Source of the DNA: a virus
DNA length: 31,591 nt
IMG/VR virus record: IMGVR_UViG_3300025325_000102
Span: 1-31,591 of that record
Reading direction: 5' to 3' (one strand)
Made by a program: the position numbers and the translations under genes. Each line of letters starts with the position of its first letter. Positions within the stretch are counted from its first letter, which is position 1. The notes beneath the pieces are model-generated. The model worked only from the letters and a program-made list of their open reading frames with translations. It was not told the origin of the DNA and did no database searches. Below, in pieces: positions 2,746-29,674 of the stretch.

Positions 2746-4131
2746 TTAAGACCACACAGATCTAGTAAATGTCGTCGAATCGTCCGAGACGGTTGCTGTG
2801 GCGATGGAGGTCGCATCGGCGTTGTTGCGAAGCGTCTCGGTCGAGGCCGTGGTGGTGCGTTTGTTGCGTGCCAGCAGGAAGCACCACTCCAGAGCCTCCA
2901 GCACGTTCCCCGTCACCCCCGGTACTGCCGTCAATTCTGCCATCGCCTTGGCCCACACGGCATCCCTGATCTCGTTGGCCGCATCCGTAGCCAGCGCCGC
3001 CGCGTCAATGGCCCCCGCGGCAAACGTCGCAGCCGCGATCGAGCCGGCCAGAAGGCTGTAGCCGGTCTTGTCGCTGTTGGTCCCCACCGTGACCGAGAAA
3101 CTGAATGCTGTCAGGGTCCTGGTCGCCGAGGCCCATACGGCGGTGCCGATCTCGGTTCCCGCGTCGGCCGCCAGGGCCGCGGCGTCAATGGCTCCGGCCG
3201 CGAACGTCGCCGCGTCGATGGCCCCGTTGGCGATCGCGGCCGCGTCGATGGCGCCCGCGCCGAACGTCGCGGCGACAATCGCGCCGGCCGACAATGTCCG
3301 TGTCGTGGTCAACCATACCTTATCCGCAGCCGCTTGGGAGAATTCGGCTGCCCCAATCGCGTCCGTGGCAATCGCGGTTGCGTCGATGGCGCCTGCCCCA
3401 AAGGTTGTGGCGACAATGGCTCCCGCGGACAGCGTGCGCGTCGTCGAGGACCAGACCTTGTCCGCCGCCGCCTGGCTGAATTCAGCAGCCCCGATCGCAT
3501 CGGTGGCGATCGCAGCCGCGTCAATGGCTCCTGCCCCGAAGGTCGCGGCCACGATGGCACCAGTCGACAGAGTGCGGGTCGTCGATGCCCAAATCTTGTC
3601 CGCGGCAGCTTGAGCGAACTCAGCCGAACCAATTGCATCCGTGGCGATAGCTGCGGCCGTGATGGCCGCACTGGCGAACGTCGCGGCATCGATCGCCCCA
3701 TCCGCAATTGCGGCCGCGTCGATGGCACCGGCAGCAAAGCTTGCTGCCGTGATGGCTGCGACCTGGAACGACCCGACCTCGATCCCGCCCAGGAGGTCTG
3801 TGTCCATCGACCGCCCGGAGGTTGTCGGGAATGCCAGATCATCGGGTATGCGCACATGCACCCTGTACTTCAGATTCACCTGCTTGGCGCCCGTGGCGGA
3901 GAATCGGAGGGACAGGATGCCGAGCGTATCGCTATCGGAAGATGAGATCGTAAAAGCGTACCAGCCATTCTCCATCTCGGTAATGATGACCGTCATGGCC
4001 GCAAAGGCCCCGCCATTTTTGCTGATGCGCTTCGTCCAGGAGCCATCTATAATACCGGTAACAGGATCGCCATTAGAGTCAAACGCGAAGAAGGTGTCGG
4101 CCAGGCTGGTGGATTGCTTGATCGGATACAT
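2746..4131 (-). CDS. Repeat-rich tail fibre or tip protein
   Basis: A 461-residue protein. Residues 1-105 form a beta-rich domain similar to the N-terminus of the fibre at 4362..6581 (both begin with a KQST-type motif). Residues about 124-385 are built from short AGAIDAAAIATDAIG-type repeats, including a 46-residue unit in two full copies plus part of a third. The C-terminus (about 388-461; WAKAMAELTAVPGVTG, then LARNK and DDSTTFTRS) matches the C-terminus of the same neighbouring fibre. The repeats suggest an elongated, probably trimeric shaft. The start overlaps the upstream stop as TGATG, suggesting coupled translation. A receptor-binding role is inferred from family style and position. 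Confidence 0.75.
   Translation of the reverse strand: MYPIKQSTSLADTFFAFDSNGDPVTGIIDGSWTKRISKNGGAFAAMTVIITEMENGWYAFTISSSDSDTLGILSLRFSATGAKQVNLKYRVHVRIPDDLAFPTTSGRSMDTDLLGGIEVGSFQVAAITAASFAAGAIDAAAIADGAIDAATFASAAITAAAIATDAIGSAEFAQAAADKIWASTTRTLSTGAIVAATFGAGAIDAAAIATDAIGAAEFSQAAADKVWSSTTRTLSAGAIVATTFGAGAIDATAIATDAIGAAEFSQAAADKVWLTTTRTLSAGAIVAATFGAGAIDAAAIANGAIDAATFAAGAIDAAALAADAGTEIGTAVWASATRTLTAFSFSVTVGTNSDKTGYSLLAGSIAAATFAAGAIDAAALATDAANEIRDAVWAKAMAELTAVPGVTGNVLEALEWCFLLARNKRTTTASTETLRNNADATSIATATVSDDSTTFTRSVWS
3232..3603 (-). repeat. 138-bp tandem repeats in fibre gene
   Basis: Units of 138 bases (46 codons) at 3603..3466 and 3465..3328, plus a partial third unit to about 3232. Each encodes ADK(I/V)W, TTRTLS, AIVA, AIDA(A/T)AIATDAIG and a final E-F-S/A-Q. 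Smaller AIDA-type repeats extend the array on both sides. Confidence 0.8.
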
Positions 4132-10967: not shown

Positions 10968-11963
10968 CTATTTGATTGGTTCGATCCGGGTACGTTCCCG
11001 CTCGCTTGCTGCTTTGATCTCTTGTGTCTGCTTCCGCAGCGCATCTATTTCGGCTCGGATGGCCGCGGTGTCAGCATCGCGTCCAGCCGCACCTGGAGGT
11101 CCAGGAGGGCCGGCTGATCCGGGGATTCCCGGATCGCCCGCAGGGCCGACTCGGCCAGGTAGACCCTGAATCCCGGCTGGTCCCGCAGGGCCTGGAGGAC
11201 CTTCCGCACCAGCTGGTCCCTGAGGTCCTGGCAGGGGTCGAACGGTCTTAAGCTCATTGATTTGCACCTGTAGCTTGCGCAGTTCCGCCAGCAGGATCGC
11301 AGTATCGGGAGAGGGCGGCCCCGGGGGCGGAGTCACGACACCACCCGGGGCCCGCGGAGCAACCACGACGGTAACGCCAGGATCGCGCCAGCGCGGAAAC
11401 CACTGCTGGCAGCGCTGGCTGATGAAACGCTGAATCTCCAAAACTCCAGTCGCTCTACTCTCATCCCCTGAACCGCCCCACAGGACGCCGACGAGCGTCT
11501 GATCGCTGGCCCGGAAGATCCCGCTGCCGCTATCGCCGCTGGAGGTGTTGAGTCGGAAGGAGGCGACGGGGACGTTCTGTTGGGTCCAGGATCGCGTGCC
11601 GATCGATTGGCCGACCCGTTGGACCGGTCCGCGGCCGTGCGGGTAGCCGACCTGCCACACCTGTTCGCCCGACGCCGTGGGGGTCGAGGCCAACGGCACC
11701 CAGGGGGTCGCGGCATCCCCCTGGATCGCGACAGCCGCCAGATCAGCCCGGTCATCGACGCCGACAAGCGTAGCGAGGAAACCGCGGCCGGACGGGAGTC
11801 TAACGGTTACCCGCCCTGCGCCGCCTGCCGGAAACAGATGCCTGCAGGTCAGGACCAGGGCGCGGTCACCCTCGACACACACCACAGTCCCGGACCCACC
11901 ACTGATAGAGCCGCCGAGGTCATTCGTGATATGGACACTGGCCGCCACCAACTTCGCCGGCAC
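10968..11963 (-). CDS. Trypsin-like serine protease with collagen-like stalk
   Basis: An open frame of 331 residues from GTG 11963. The chymotrypsin-fold protease domain (about 5-190) has all three catalytic residues: H42 in TCRHLFP, D74 in DRADLAAV and S145 in SSGDSGSG. It is followed by a Pro-rich linker, a short coiled coil ([19 protein letters not shown]), 17 uninterrupted Gly-X-Y triplets (about 246-296) and a C-terminal charged helix. The GTG has no ribosome site. In the same frame upstream, a signal peptide (12063..12140) is separated from it only by one TGA, so the original gene probably ran 12140 to 10968. It may act on the cell surface or trimerise through the collagen-like part. 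It is either a broken gene or a recoded one. Confidence 0.75.
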
Positions 11964-12466: not shown

Positions 12467-13363
12467 TCAGAATCTCAGGATCAGGTCCCGATCGTCGGCC
12501 AACAGCACGTCCAGGAGATCGGCGCGGAGGATATCGGAATCGGCCCCGCCGACCAGCACATCCGCTCCGGCGTCGCCGCTGAGATCGTCGCGGCGCCCGT
12601 TGCCGACCAGGACGTCGTTTCCGGCTCCGCCCTTGAGCAAATCAACCCCGCCGCCGCCGACGAGCACGTCATCCCCGGCAGCCCCATACACGACGGAATC
12701 GACCGTGGAGAAGTTAAGGAAATGATCATTCCCGTTCCCCAATACCCCAGCGATCGTATCGACCGCCCCACGGGCAAACCCCATGGTCTGCCCGTTATAC
12801 ACCACCTGCAGCTGCCCACCTTGCTCCTGCACAATCGCTCGATCATCTCCCCCGCTACCGAGCAGATACAGCACACCACCCAGCAACTGCACCGGCTGAG
12901 TCGTGACGCCAAACACCACGTTGGGCCGGTCCTCGCGGTCATTGCCGAAGAGGGTGGTCCCGTTGCCGATCAGTCGATCCCGGCCGAACCCGCCGTCAAT
13001 CACGCTGGTGCCGACGATTGAGTAGATGGTGTCGGCCCCGGTGCCGCCGAAGATGCGGTCATTGCCAAAGGTCCACAGGGTATCATCCCCCCGGTCCCCC
13101 TCCATGATGGTCGTGACGCTTGGCAGCAGGACCGTCAGGATGTCGTTCCCGCCCTCACCCTCGACCCTCACCATCTGGACCGCCACCGTGGCATACATCG
13201 CCGACTGATTGTCGATCGTCGCCAACACTTTCATACTGTCGGCCGATAACCCAACGTTCACCACATTGGGGGCATCGTCTCCCAGGATCGACAGCAACCC
13301 CCCCTGGAGGGAAATGGACGCCGGGGTCAGGCGATCTTCCAGTTGTTCTACGACGAGTCTCAT
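12467..13363 (-). CDS. RTX-like calcium-binding protein with planctomycete-type N-terminus
   Basis: A 298-residue protein starting MRLVVEQLEDRLTPAS. The (V/L)E-x-LEDRLTPA motif is typical of the N-terminus of many Gemmataceae surface or secreted proteins, whose role is thought to be export or sorting. The rest is rich in degenerate RTX nonapeptides such as GGNDILT, GGTGADTI, GAAGDDVLVGGGG and GGAGNDVLVGNG, which bind calcium in beta-rolls. There is no ordinary hydrophobic signal peptide. The start overlaps the stop of the upstream frame (GAATGAG). It is most likely a host-derived cargo (moron) gene, possibly surface-exposed on the lysogen. A structural role in the virion is an alternative. 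Confidence 0.85.
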   Translation of the reverse strand: MRLVVEQLEDRLTPASISLQGGLLSILGDDAPNVVNVGLSADSMKVLATIDNQSAMYATVAVQMVRVEGEGGNDILTVLLPSVTTIMEGDRGDDTLWTFGNDRIFGGTGADTIYSIVGTSVIDGGFGRDRLIGNGTTLFGNDREDRPNVVFGVTTQPVQLLGGVLYLLGSGGDDRAIVQEQGGQLQVVYNGQTMGFARGAVDTIAGVLGNGNDHFLNFSTVDSVVYGAAGDDVLVGGGGVDLLKGGAGNDVLVGNGRRDDLSGDAGADVLVGGADSDILRADLLDVLLADDRDLILRF

Positions 13364-22381: not shown

Positions 22382-22726
22382 TCAATCATCCGCGCCCAGG
22401 ATCTCCAGGTAGGAGTCAATGCCACCCATGGCCCTGTACTCCACCCTGCCTACGACCCGGATCAAGATTCCATCGCTCGTGACCAGCACATCGCCGTTGT
22501 CGATGTCCGTATCCCCCGGGAGGAAGACCCGATAAGCCACGTGCATATCCAACTGCTGATACTTCAATCGCTGGTCCGAGGAGAGCGATTCTACGCGCGC
22601 CGGAATCTCGACCGCCTCCGCCTTGTCCACGAACGGCAGATGGGTGGAGCCGCCGCTGGTGTCCTTGGCAATCGTCGGCCGCTGGACCGTCACCGTGTCC
22701 TCGGCCAGGAGGGCGTCGTAGCTCAT
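22382..22726 (-). CDS. Head closure (head-tail adaptor) protein
   Basis: A 114-residue beta-barrel protein of the SPP1 gp16/HK97-type stopper class. Signs are a start DTVTVQRPTIAKDTSGGSTH, then EIPARVESLSSDQRLKYQQ and an end YLEILGADD after DGILIRVVGRVEYR. It plugs the portal after packaging. The ATG overlaps the connector gene stop (ATGA), suggesting coupled translation. Confidence 0.8.
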   Translation of the reverse strand: MSYDALLAEDTVTVQRPTIAKDTSGGSTHLPFVDKAEAVEIPARVESLSSDQRLKYQQLDMHVAYRVFLPGDTDIDNGDVLVTSDGILIRVVGRVEYRAMGGIDSYLEILGADD

Positions 22727-23442
22727 ACGGCCACCTCGCGGTACCTGGACAGGATCTGCCGAATTGACGCCATCTCGGCCCCACTGCCGTTGCCCGACGA
22801 TGGCCCGAACAGGCTGTAGCTGTACTGGCCGAGCGATTCCGATTGCGGGGACCCGCCGCCGAACTTCGCCGTGCGGCGCAGGTGCGATACGTACAGGTTC
22901 TCTGCCAACTCCAGGTCTTTCGGCTTCGTCGCCACCGTGTAGCCGGCCACGTACACGACCTTGATGTTACCCGCGCGCGGCAACGGCGGTTCGTGCGACA
23001 GCCCCCCGGTCCGCTGCTGATCCGACCACGCGGGATAGAAGGCCCCGCTGGAGATCGCCAGCGGCCACACGCTATTGATCCGCTCGACGATGCCGCGCCG
23101 GCTCACCGAGACAGCGCCGATGGTGGTGTCAAAGACCAGGGCATACTCGGTCCCGGCCACCAGGATCGTCGACGATGAAAAGGCGCCTGACGCCTGGCCG
23201 TAGTATGCCCCGGAGTCCACGTGGATGCTGGTGATGCTGATGACCGGCCGCTGGCGCAGGATCAGCAGGGGCATCCCGTCCCCCGAATAGAACTCCGTGT
23301 AGGTGGCCTGCTCGATGTCGCGCCCCAGATACTCCTTTATAGCCGCATCCGCTGCGTCAATCATGGCGGCAAGCCGGGCATCTTCGGTGTTGGACCGAAT
23401 ACCCAAGAAGCATTTCAAACTAGGAAGCGTGGTCAGTGCCAT
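22723..23442 (-). CDS. Head-tail connector (gp6-like)
   Basis: A 239-residue adaptor that binds below the portal. The N-terminus LTTLPSLKCFLGIRSNTEDA, followed by LAAMIDAADAAIKEYLGRDI, is the typical helical start of gp6/gp15-like connectors. The middle is strand-rich (LLILRQRPVISITSIHVDSG) and a C-terminal helix follows. ATG 23442 is preferred; an in-frame TTG at 23454 is possible, and the ribosome site is weak for both. Its start borders the intergenic CRISPR repeat unit. Confidence 0.85.
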   Translation of the reverse strand: MALTTLPSLKCFLGIRSNTEDARLAAMIDAADAAIKEYLGRDIEQATYTEFYSGDGMPLLILRQRPVISITSIHVDSGAYYGQASGAFSSSTILVAGTEYALVFDTTIGAVSVSRRGIVERINSVWPLAISSGAFYPAWSDQQRTGGLSHEPPLPRAGNIKVVYVAGYTVATKPKDLELAENLYVSHLRRTAKFGGGSPQSESLGQYSYSLFGPSSGNGSGAEMASIRQILSRYREVAV

Positions 23443-23586
23443 TTTTGCTTGCAATTCCCAGGAGCCGCAGTTAAAACCATCGTCTGGTCAGACGAACGTG
23501 GTTTCCCCACGCATGTGGGGGTGAACCGATCGAGATGGCAGACGCTGCCATCAAAGAATCAGCCACGTTTATCTGACCTTTTCTTT
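23443..23586 (+). ncRNA. Candidate structured RNA carrying a solitary CRISPR repeat
   Basis: This 144-bp gap in an otherwise tightly packed operon holds, in plus orientation, a weak promoter (TTGCAA 23449..23454, 17 bases, TAAAAC 23472..23477), a dyad CGTCTGGTCAGACG (23481..23494), a type I-E-like repeat (23500..23528) and a hairpin TGGCAG-ACG-CTGCCA (23536..23550). Cas proteins are absent here. It resembles the solitary repeat units described as RNA anti-CRISPRs. Transcription is not shown. Confidence 0.45.
23500..23528 (+). CRISPR. Solitary type I-E-like CRISPR repeat
   Basis: A 29-nt sequence with stem CCCCAC, loop GCAT, stem GTGGGG and the I-E-type end GTGAACCG. It is identical over its last 27 bases to the repeat at 29376..29404 on the other strand. 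No second repeat lies at the 61-nt spacing on either side, so it is a single copy, not an array. Confidence 0.8.
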
Positions 23587-23766
23587 TCACTTCGTCAGGT
23601 AATGGGTACCAGCGGCGGGTGTCACTTCCCGTCGCTGGTATAGCGGGCTTTCTCGCCCGATCGCTTTCACCGAGATCACCTTCCCTTGCGAGATCATCAG
23701 GCGCGTCGTCGCGGCATCCGCCACGATCGATCCGCCTGCCCTCAGACAGACCCGGTAGTAGGTCAT
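23587..23766 (-). CDS. Small hypothetical head-region protein
   Basis: A 59-residue protein from ATG 23766, four bases after the upstream stop. It begins MTYYRVCLRAGGSIVADAAT and ends TPAAGTHYLTK; a compact strand-rich fold is likely. Similar very short genes often lie between capsid decoration and connector genes, but no function is known. Its downstream side opens into the gap with the solitary CRISPR repeat. Confidence 0.65.
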   Translation of the reverse strand: MTYYRVCLRAGGSIVADAATTRLMISQGKVISVKAIGRESPLYQRREVTPAAGTHYLTK

Positions 23767-28801: not shown

Positions 28802-29674
28802 TCACGCCAGCACTTCCGTCCACGTACACATGCAGTGCGGGTGCCGCGGCGGGTGCATGATCACCGCATACGGCCCCACGCCGGCGATGACGAACGGCTG
28901 GTCCAACGGCACTTCCACCCCATCGAGCGGCAAACACATGGGGCATGCGTCCGCTGAAGCCAACCAGCGCTTTCCCGTCACGACTCCGCTCTCCTGGGCC
29001 GCAATCAGCTGCCCCGCATGGACCGCCCGACTGGCCTCCGTAGTGGCGATTCGGAACGCCCGCATGGGATCGTCGAATATCTCCTGCACCCGGGCCGTCA
29101 GCTGGAAGAGTGCCTCACCTCGCTCCAGGCCCGTCGATAGCTCGCGCCGCAAGTCCTGAATCGCCTGCCCCAGCTCGCGCGTGGCGGTCTGGTTGGTCGC
29201 ATCGCAGAACTGGAACACGGCCTGGCGGATCGCCTCCAACACGCGCGGATTGAAGACATCGAACGCGGGGTCGAAGACGTCTAAGAGGCGGTCTTCGGGG
29301 GCACCTTCGTCTTTCAATTCACCCCCACGTGCGTGGGGAAAAGGACGAAGGCGACCCAAGCCGTATCCTGGACGTCGGTTCACCCCCACATGCGTGGGGA
29401 AAAGGTCCTTCCTCTCCCGTATCTGCCTCCTAATCCGCCTCATTGCGCCCCTGATGCCCTCCGCGTAGTACCCGTGCAGTAGCGGTTCCATTGCCGTCGC
29501 CATCGGCTGCGTCCAGTGGTTGAGCGACGGCACCCGCTCGGGATTCTGCCGCAGCTTCGCCAGCACCTCGCGCTGCTGCCGGCGGAAGATGACCCGCAGG
29601 GCGCGGGCGATCTTGCGGCCCGTGGGAATGTCACGGCCATGCCGAGGGTCAATGGTGCGGAGGATGAGTTTCAT
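28802..29674 (-). CDS. MuF-type head morphogenesis protein containing a CRISPR mini-array
   Basis: A 290-residue minor head protein of the SPP1 gp7/Mu gpF class, which binds the portal inside the capsid. The C-terminal MuF domain (about 205-288) shows FRIATTEASRAVHAGQLIAA, KRWLASADACPMCLPLDGVE and a closing HPPRHPHCMCTW; the cysteine and histidine pairs probably bind metal. Residues 91-120 (LFPTHVGVNR through PFPHARGGEL) are encoded entirely by two type I-E-like CRISPR repeats and a spacer, exactly 90 bases, starting and ending on codon borders. The start overlaps the upstream stop (ATGA). The insert falls in the linker between the helical N-terminus and the rest, where it may be tolerated. 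Confidence 0.9.
   Translation of the reverse strand: MKLILRTIDPRHGRDIPTGRKIARALRVIFRRQQREVLAKLRQNPERVPSLNHWTQPMATAMEPLLHGYYAEGIRGAMRRIRRQIRERKDLFPTHVGVNRRPGYGLGRLRPFPHARGGELKDEGAPEDRLLDVFDPAFDVFNPRVLEAIRQAVFQFCDATNQTATRELGQAIQDLRRELSTGLERGEALFQLTARVQEIFDDPMRAFRIATTEASRAVHAGQLIAAQESGVVTGKRWLASADACPMCLPLDGVEVPLDQPFVIAGVGPYAVIMHPPRHPHCMCTWTEVLA
29315..29404 (-). CRISPR. Two-repeat, one-spacer mini CRISPR array inside a head gene
   Basis: Read on the minus strand: repeat 29376..29404 (29 nt, stem CCCCAC-GCAT-GTGGGG, end GTGAACCG), a 32-nt spacer (29344..29375), and repeat 29315..29343 with two kinds of change (loop GCAC, end GTGAATTG), as expected for a degenerate trailer repeat. 29+32+29 is the standard type I-E geometry. 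No cas gene is in the window. The unit is co-directional with the head gene that it interrupts. Confidence 0.85.

Follow-up and report, generated by a model that had tools for sequence, protein, structure and literature searches.

The phage genome record analysed here (31,591 nucleotides, referred to below as the window) carries a type I-E-like CRISPR repeat-spacer-repeat unit in frame inside the gene of a MuF-type minor head protein, and comparison of the encoded residues indicates that its spacer is a coding variant of the gene segment adjoining the array. A solitary third repeat elsewhere in the window is likewise followed by 32 nt that resemble the gene beside it, and comparable placings of a guide beside its target in unrelated viruses point to an inter-viral weapon kept linked to its own immunity. 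The explanation that we favour, and to which we assign a somewhat better than even probability as a whole, is a mini-array aimed at related phages and kept beside the carrier's own escaped target allele. The features of the head-protein locus are as follows.

28802..29674, minus strand: MuF-type minor head protein gene (290 aa) holding the mini-array; Pfam Phage_Mu_F, E=2.8e-10, and PHROG head families
29376..29404, minus strand: first type I-E-like repeat, CTTTTCCCCACGCATGTGGGGGTGAACCG; identified by repeat pattern, hairpin and a Gemmataceae array with the same 26-nt core (C/T allowed at one base)
29344..29375, minus strand: 32-nt spacer of the MuF array; its reverse complement reads DEGDPSRILDV, a variant of the MuF segment adjoining the array
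29315..29343, minus strand: second repeat, CTTTTCCCCACGCACGTGGGGGTGAATTG; 3' end degenerate (GAATTG versus GAACCG)
29277..29311, plus strand: divergent self version of the target, formed by MuF codons DEGAPEDRLLDV and separated from the array by 3 nt; the PAM position (29274-29276) holds AAG

The unit spans 29 + 32 + 29 = 90 nt on the minus strand (29404-29315) with its repeats 61 nt apart, which is the geometry of type I-E units (28-29-nt repeats, 32-33-nt spacers and a period of ~61 nt). The repeat pattern was matched three times in the window, against 0.00 matches expected from 100 shuffles. Each repeat is predicted to fold into a CCCCAC/GTGGGG hairpin, after which comes an 8-nt handle of the GUGAACCG type, with the second MuF repeat ending in GUGAAUUG; this second repeat differs from the first at three bases, two of them near the 3' end. 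Degeneration of the 3' end is frequent in trailing CRISPR repeats. The 90-mer begins on a MuF codon border and, while two of its three phases run into TGA, the phase used is open. Geometry, repeat pattern and open phase together confirm the original prediction of a type I-E-like repeat-spacer-repeat written in frame inside the MuF gene. The spacer and the phage's own target form an inverted repeat that is paired in the predicted mRNA fold. An Rfam search gave no match, and an AlphaFold model of the MuF protein built from three sequences had a mean pLDDT of 38, which is too low for use, with residues 92-126 drawn as coil. Over 7,045 bases that take in the array, a second IMG/VR contig (L005) shows 100% identity; it may not represent an independent assembly.

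None of the 26 window gene products tested was recognised as a cas or known defence protein, the nearest approach being one weak match to a restriction enzyme (E=0.004). The window has the make-up of a virus-borne mini-array, in that a viral genome carries no more than one or two spacers and gave no cas hit among those 26 products, in a virus record that may be incomplete; that the MuF-borne unit is a cas-less, type I-E mini-array of this kind is part of the favoured explanation and shares its joint probability, use against relatives included. In the open-licence literature we found no report of a mini-array lying in frame within a virion gene. Elsewhere on the minus strand, 2746-4131 contains three 138-bp direct repeats (~73% alike) and many A/D-rich repeats and probably encodes a tail-fibre-like protein, and 10968-11963 is a phage gene in which an HtrA-like protease portion precedes collagen-like repeats.

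Comparison with the closest MuF homologues (L007 and L008, 85% identical at the protein level) shows a difference at this site: the relatives read RARK-RVYGTIR-KDEG and the window reads RERKD-[30 residues]-KDEG, so that the closest homologue has seven unrelated residues in place of the array. Residues 91-120 are accordingly an insertion, and a homologue exists that lacks both the 30 residues and the repeat; at up to 3 mismatches, the repeat is absent from the whole L007 (31 kb) and L008 (46 kb) records. At the DNA level, one codon plus 90 nt replace 21 nt of the nearest relative. The proposal that the insert added exactly 30 codons without breaking the frame therefore holds for the in-frame 90 nt and has to be amended for the event itself, in which 21 nt were replaced and the net gain was 72 nt. 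Likewise, the argument that a repeat-spacer-repeat is the smallest in-frame insert is arithmetically correct, and the real event replaced 21 nt. Apart from the array, the sole indel in the MuF alignment is a codon inserted in the phage's own target.

The origin of the spacer was assessed by comparing its reverse complement, DEGDPSRILDV, with the MuF protein of the window, which one codon (3 nt) past the array reads DEGAPEDRLLDV, and with that of the sister phage, which reads DEGAPERILDV. At the homologous site of the sister gene the spacer matches 23/32 nt, the best of all loci compared (next 21), and 6 of the 9 differences fall at third codon positions. When random phage 32-mers of similar G+C were scored against the sister MuF gene, 0 of 12,000 were as good on nucleotide and protein jointly (8/12,000 on nucleotide alone and 14/12,000 on protein alone); against the whole sister contig, 3 of 1000 equalled the spacer in both respects. 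A degenerate back-translation of the spacer motif found only two other contigs in IMG/VR, in both cases in the MuF gene. No exact target was present in IMG/VR, GenBank phages or PLSDB plasmids, the matches in the latter two reaching only E >=3, and a search for a closer source phage by degenerate motif and alignment returned only relatives already known. Searching the spacer against phage and plasmid genomes, as had been proposed, thus led to the MuF gene of a relative (23/32) and, in GenBank phages and PLSDB, to these E >=3 matches only. The earlier guess that the guide is directed against a competing virus is strengthened by this match to the homologous gene of a relative. Because the spacer lies about equally far from the phage's own copy (10 differences and a codon gap) and from the sister copy (9 differences), we infer that its source was a third, related phage.

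Against the spacer, the phage's own copy matches at positions 1-5, 7, 9 and 10 and mismatches at 6, 8, 11 and 12, and the inserted codon shifts the distal part. From the known seed rules of type I-E systems, one would expect the seed mismatches and the extra codon to protect the carrier against its own guide.

The solitary third repeat, which was absent from the original prediction, lies in a second insert beside a head-tail adaptor gene.

23500..23528, plus strand: solitary third repeat, GGTTTCCCCACGCATGTGGGGGTGAACCG; identified by the repeat pattern
23529..23560, plus strand: spacer-like 32-mer that follows the solitary repeat and is not closed by another one; its translation, IEMADAAIKES, resembles the neighbouring adaptor gene
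23443..23587, no strand assigned: insert relative to sister phage L013, holding the solitary repeat and the 32-mer; ends approximate
22723..23454, minus strand: head-tail adaptor gene (PHROG 442, E=8e-24); probable start ATG at 23442

In the sister, 3 bp separate a 59-aa ORF from the adaptor gene; in the window this gap is ~145 bp and contains the solitary repeat, so that two repeat-bearing inserts distinguish the window phage from its sister. In the whole window, the best translated match of the solitary 32-mer is the adjacent adaptor gene, where the residues IDAADAAIKEY (23361-23330, ATG in the PAM position) constitute its diverged target. The score of this match was reached by 17 of 12,000 random 32-mers compared with the adaptor gene, 10 of its 13 differences fall at third codon positions, and mismatches to the phage's own adaptor gene occur at positions 3, 7 and 8. 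By eye, the homology to the adaptor gene ends with the 32 nt, as expected for a spacer. No promoter or leader was found at the solitary repeat by sigma-70 consensus.

The repeats of the window are of type I-E by sequence class, and the host is probably a member of the Gemmataceae; these assignments are made because of the capsid matches, the shared repeat core, contigs with Cas6e and a Fructilactobacillus plasmid. An alignment search with the major capsid protein gave Gemmataceae MAGs (48-50% identical) as four of its top five genome matches. One of 95 Gemmataceae genomes holds at least 22 copies of TTCCCCACGCACGTGGGGGTGAACCG at a spacing of ~61 nt, five others hold variants of the repeat with 1 to 3 mismatches, and in three (G027, G028 and G098) Cas6e lies on the same contig as a near-variant repeat. 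On the Fructilactobacillus plasmid, a similar repeat adjoins a complete type I-E set of effector genes. The phage repeat equals the Gemmataceae array repeat over a 26-nt core with C at the variable base and is not identical to it over the full 29 nt, the 5' ends differing (GGCTTCCCC in the 22-copy Gemmataceae repeat versus CTTTTCCCC in the phage), and the exact 27-nt core of the phage repeat had no match in 84,980 genomes. The expectation of finding the same repeat in a host type I-E array is hence borne out for the CRISPR repeat class and the 26-nt core, and not for the exact 27-mer or the full 29 nt; that the repeat might belong to no CRISPR array at all can be set aside, given the Gemmataceae array of that class with at least 22 copies. 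The spacers of the Gemmataceae arrays matched the window phage at best at 22/32, which is the chance level. As a further hint of the host, the window encodes at 12467-13363 (minus strand) a calcium-binding-repeat protein with the N-terminus MRLVVEQLEDRLTPA, like QLEDRTTPA in the Gemmataceae contig L138.

To place the two elements in a wider context, IMG/VR was scanned with type I-E repeat patterns, giving 62 stretches with a first pattern and 34 with a second. When arrays of one or two spacers were compared blind with the sequence flanking them, L029, L036, L021, L037 and the solitary element of the window beat every control, and L004 was equalled by 1 of 60 controls. Owing to the inserted codon, the MuF spacer did not reach significance in this test, where 17 of 54 controls did as well. 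Against a null of random 32-mers on both scores, L036, L079, L063 and L037 were reached by 0/1500, L021 by 1/1500 and L004 by 61/12,000. Nearby diverged targets were seen for L036, L021, L037, L063, L079 and L004, at distances of 49 bp to 1.8 kb. AAG occupied the PAM position at four of nine such sites versus ~1% expected, an excess that is supportive only, the nine sites being hand-picked. Most small viral arrays in the survey were without a nearby match, and the spacers of arrays with at least five repeats rarely matched their flanks (translated test, one reading direction). In these sequences, then, the placing of a guide near its target is recurrent, not universal.

Individual records differed in arrangement. 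An unrelated phage (L004:4570-4662) has an intergenic repeat-spacer-repeat whose spacer reads KIASDAGLTD; a neighbouring HTH (small-terminase-like) gene at a distance of 257 bp encodes the similar KIAKSAGATD, and AAG occupies the PAM position. The two-repeat array at L036:6237-6680 has a spacer matching its own contig at 31/32 nt ~300 bp away, with ACG in the PAM position. The related contigs L028, L029, L031, L042 and L046 have a common spacer with a 32/32 match of their own 1.4 kb away (TGA in the PAM position). The array at L021:8350-8530 (also L051 and L068) has a spacer whose pairing to a site at 49 bp distance covers precisely positions 1-5 and 7-11; the PAM position there reads ATG. In a four-repeat array, the spacer at L063:5374-5405 encodes TFRVISVDSG, ten residues identical to those of a gene 1.8 kb away from which it differs at 9/32 nt, eight of these at third codon positions. 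L024, L039 and L075 were dropped as further cases owing to a duplicated array and G+C-rich or unconvincing matches.

Under the favoured explanation, the MuF array would be transcribed with the late mRNA of its gene, in the sense needed for Cas6e, and the Cas6e of a type I-E host would release a crRNA of ~61-62 nt. Host Cascade could then load this crRNA and attack any co-infecting relative whose target and PAM are intact, while the carrier would escape through the seed mismatches and extra codon of its own allele. A predicted cost is that excision of the crRNA destroys that MuF mRNA. A guide recombined away from the escaped allele would attack its carrier, so that close pairs would survive; because array and immune allele adjoin, the guide would rarely be parted from immunity by recombination, and we propose this linkage as the reason for the proximity of array and target, which recurs at the second element of the phage and in several unrelated viral arrays. 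Objections are that no perfect target was found in IMG/VR, GenBank phages or plasmids, that no host repeat seen equals the phage repeat over its 29 nt, that the MuF spacer was not significant in the blind flank test, that no leader or promoter was found at the solitary element, that excision would cost the MuF mRNA, and that most small arrays in the survey have no nearby match. The evidence base consists of metagenomic records in which the statistical support for any single match is modest, and its strength lies in the agreement of the matches.

Several other explanations were weighed. The elements may be inert relics, pieces of a host array copied beside the protospacer, for example during repair of a Cas3-made break, that persist solely through being in frame or intergenic. 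Such an origin fits a solitary element that lost or never had its second repeat and at which no promoter was found, as well as the degenerate second MuF repeat, and homology-guided capture would account for proximity without function. Simple recombination through spacer homology, however, would not leave the spacers inverted relative to the phage's own target with its own copy kept; both 32-mers are about equally far from the sister and the own gene, which disfavours a captured spacer against the window phage itself, and the array remains open in frame. We regard a relic as unlikely, with a small yet appreciable chance. Coincidental likeness of the 32-mers to neighbouring genes, with the array's target unrelated, appears very improbable: each match is weak alone (recall the 3/1000 random 32-mers against the whole sister contig), but two elements in one phage each lie beside a match, 16 of 22 differences follow the third-position pattern, and L036 has the same arrangement with a near-perfect 31/32.

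Phage solitary repeats can act as RNA anti-CRISPRs (Racr), including against type I-E (Camara-Wilpert et al. 2023, PMC10651486), and the repeats of the window might serve as decoys that tie up host Cas6e and Cas7, the 32-mers being incidental. That solitary repeats inhibit type I-E and other systems (PMC10651486), and that one window element is a type I-E-like repeat standing alone, with no cas gene recognised in the phage, speak for this. The lone repeat is, however, followed by 32 nt like the adjacent gene, as are the 32 nt of the repeat-spacer-repeat in the same phage, which are thus hardly incidental; one 32-mer sits between two repeats at the exact array spacing, and there is no recognisable promoter near the solitary repeat. 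We give the decoy function little credence. To a regulatory role, in which the crRNA partly pairs with the phage's own gene and Cascade represses without cutting, we ascribe a similarly low probability. CreA guides of CreTA modules derive from minimal CRISPRs and pair partially with their target (PMC8501985), and the window resembles them in having a minimal array beside a partly matching target with a PAM: the own MuF copy keeps AAG and its paired positions 1-5, 7, 9 and 10, and the L021 copy, with its ATG, shows the exact CreA pattern (PMC8501985). CreA, though, uses positions 1-5 and 7-11 to pair with the promoter of a toxin (PMC8501985), whereas the window elements do not show this pairing to a promoter with a PAM, being mismatched at 8 and 11 (MuF) and at 3, 7 and 8 (adaptor). 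Both targets lie in coding sequence instead of promoters, and repression of this kind would shut down late genes of the phage itself.

The mini-array aimed at relatives has its closest precedent in archaeal viruses, where mini-arrays directed against relatives, with mutated self loci, are established (2019, PMC6858448), and where the proximity of array and target in two viruses was reported and left unexplained (PMC6858448). The likeness extends to one or two spacers, the lack of recognised viral cas genes and close targets, and probably also to host-type repeats, spacers against relatives and mutated target loci of their own (PMC6858448). The archaeal-virus arrays are intergenic, with leader, promoter and known exact targets (PMC6858448), whereas the window array is of type I-E and lies in frame in a virion gene, with no exact target found and, at the solitary element, no leader found. 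A Bathyarchaeia virus array has two spacers with exact self matches, noted without explanation (PMC10848311).

A further reading is that the unit is an RNA-guided homing or killer-immunity element: it would direct host Cascade to the allele of the very gene in which it lies, spare its own altered allele and spread in mixed infections when rivals that have been cut use the carrier as repair template. This would amount to a natural phage CRISPR gene drive whose guides sit at their target, and it is distinctly unlikely in our estimation. In phage homing endonuclease genes, the cutting specificity is encoded at or beside the allele that is spared from cutting. The window would be alike in placing specificity at an allele that it spares, and would differ in relying on an RNA guide for specificity and on the host for the nuclease; homing here is hypothetical.

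These findings indicate that a CRISPR unit can lie within protein-coding sequence, a place in which array finders and gene callers could each miss it. They also make testable the proposals that linkage protects the carrier from its own guide and that the array spreads by homing. Taken together, the proximity of guide and target in tailed phages with a type I-E-like array, in one case inside the targeted gene itself, suggests a recurrent pattern and not a quirk.
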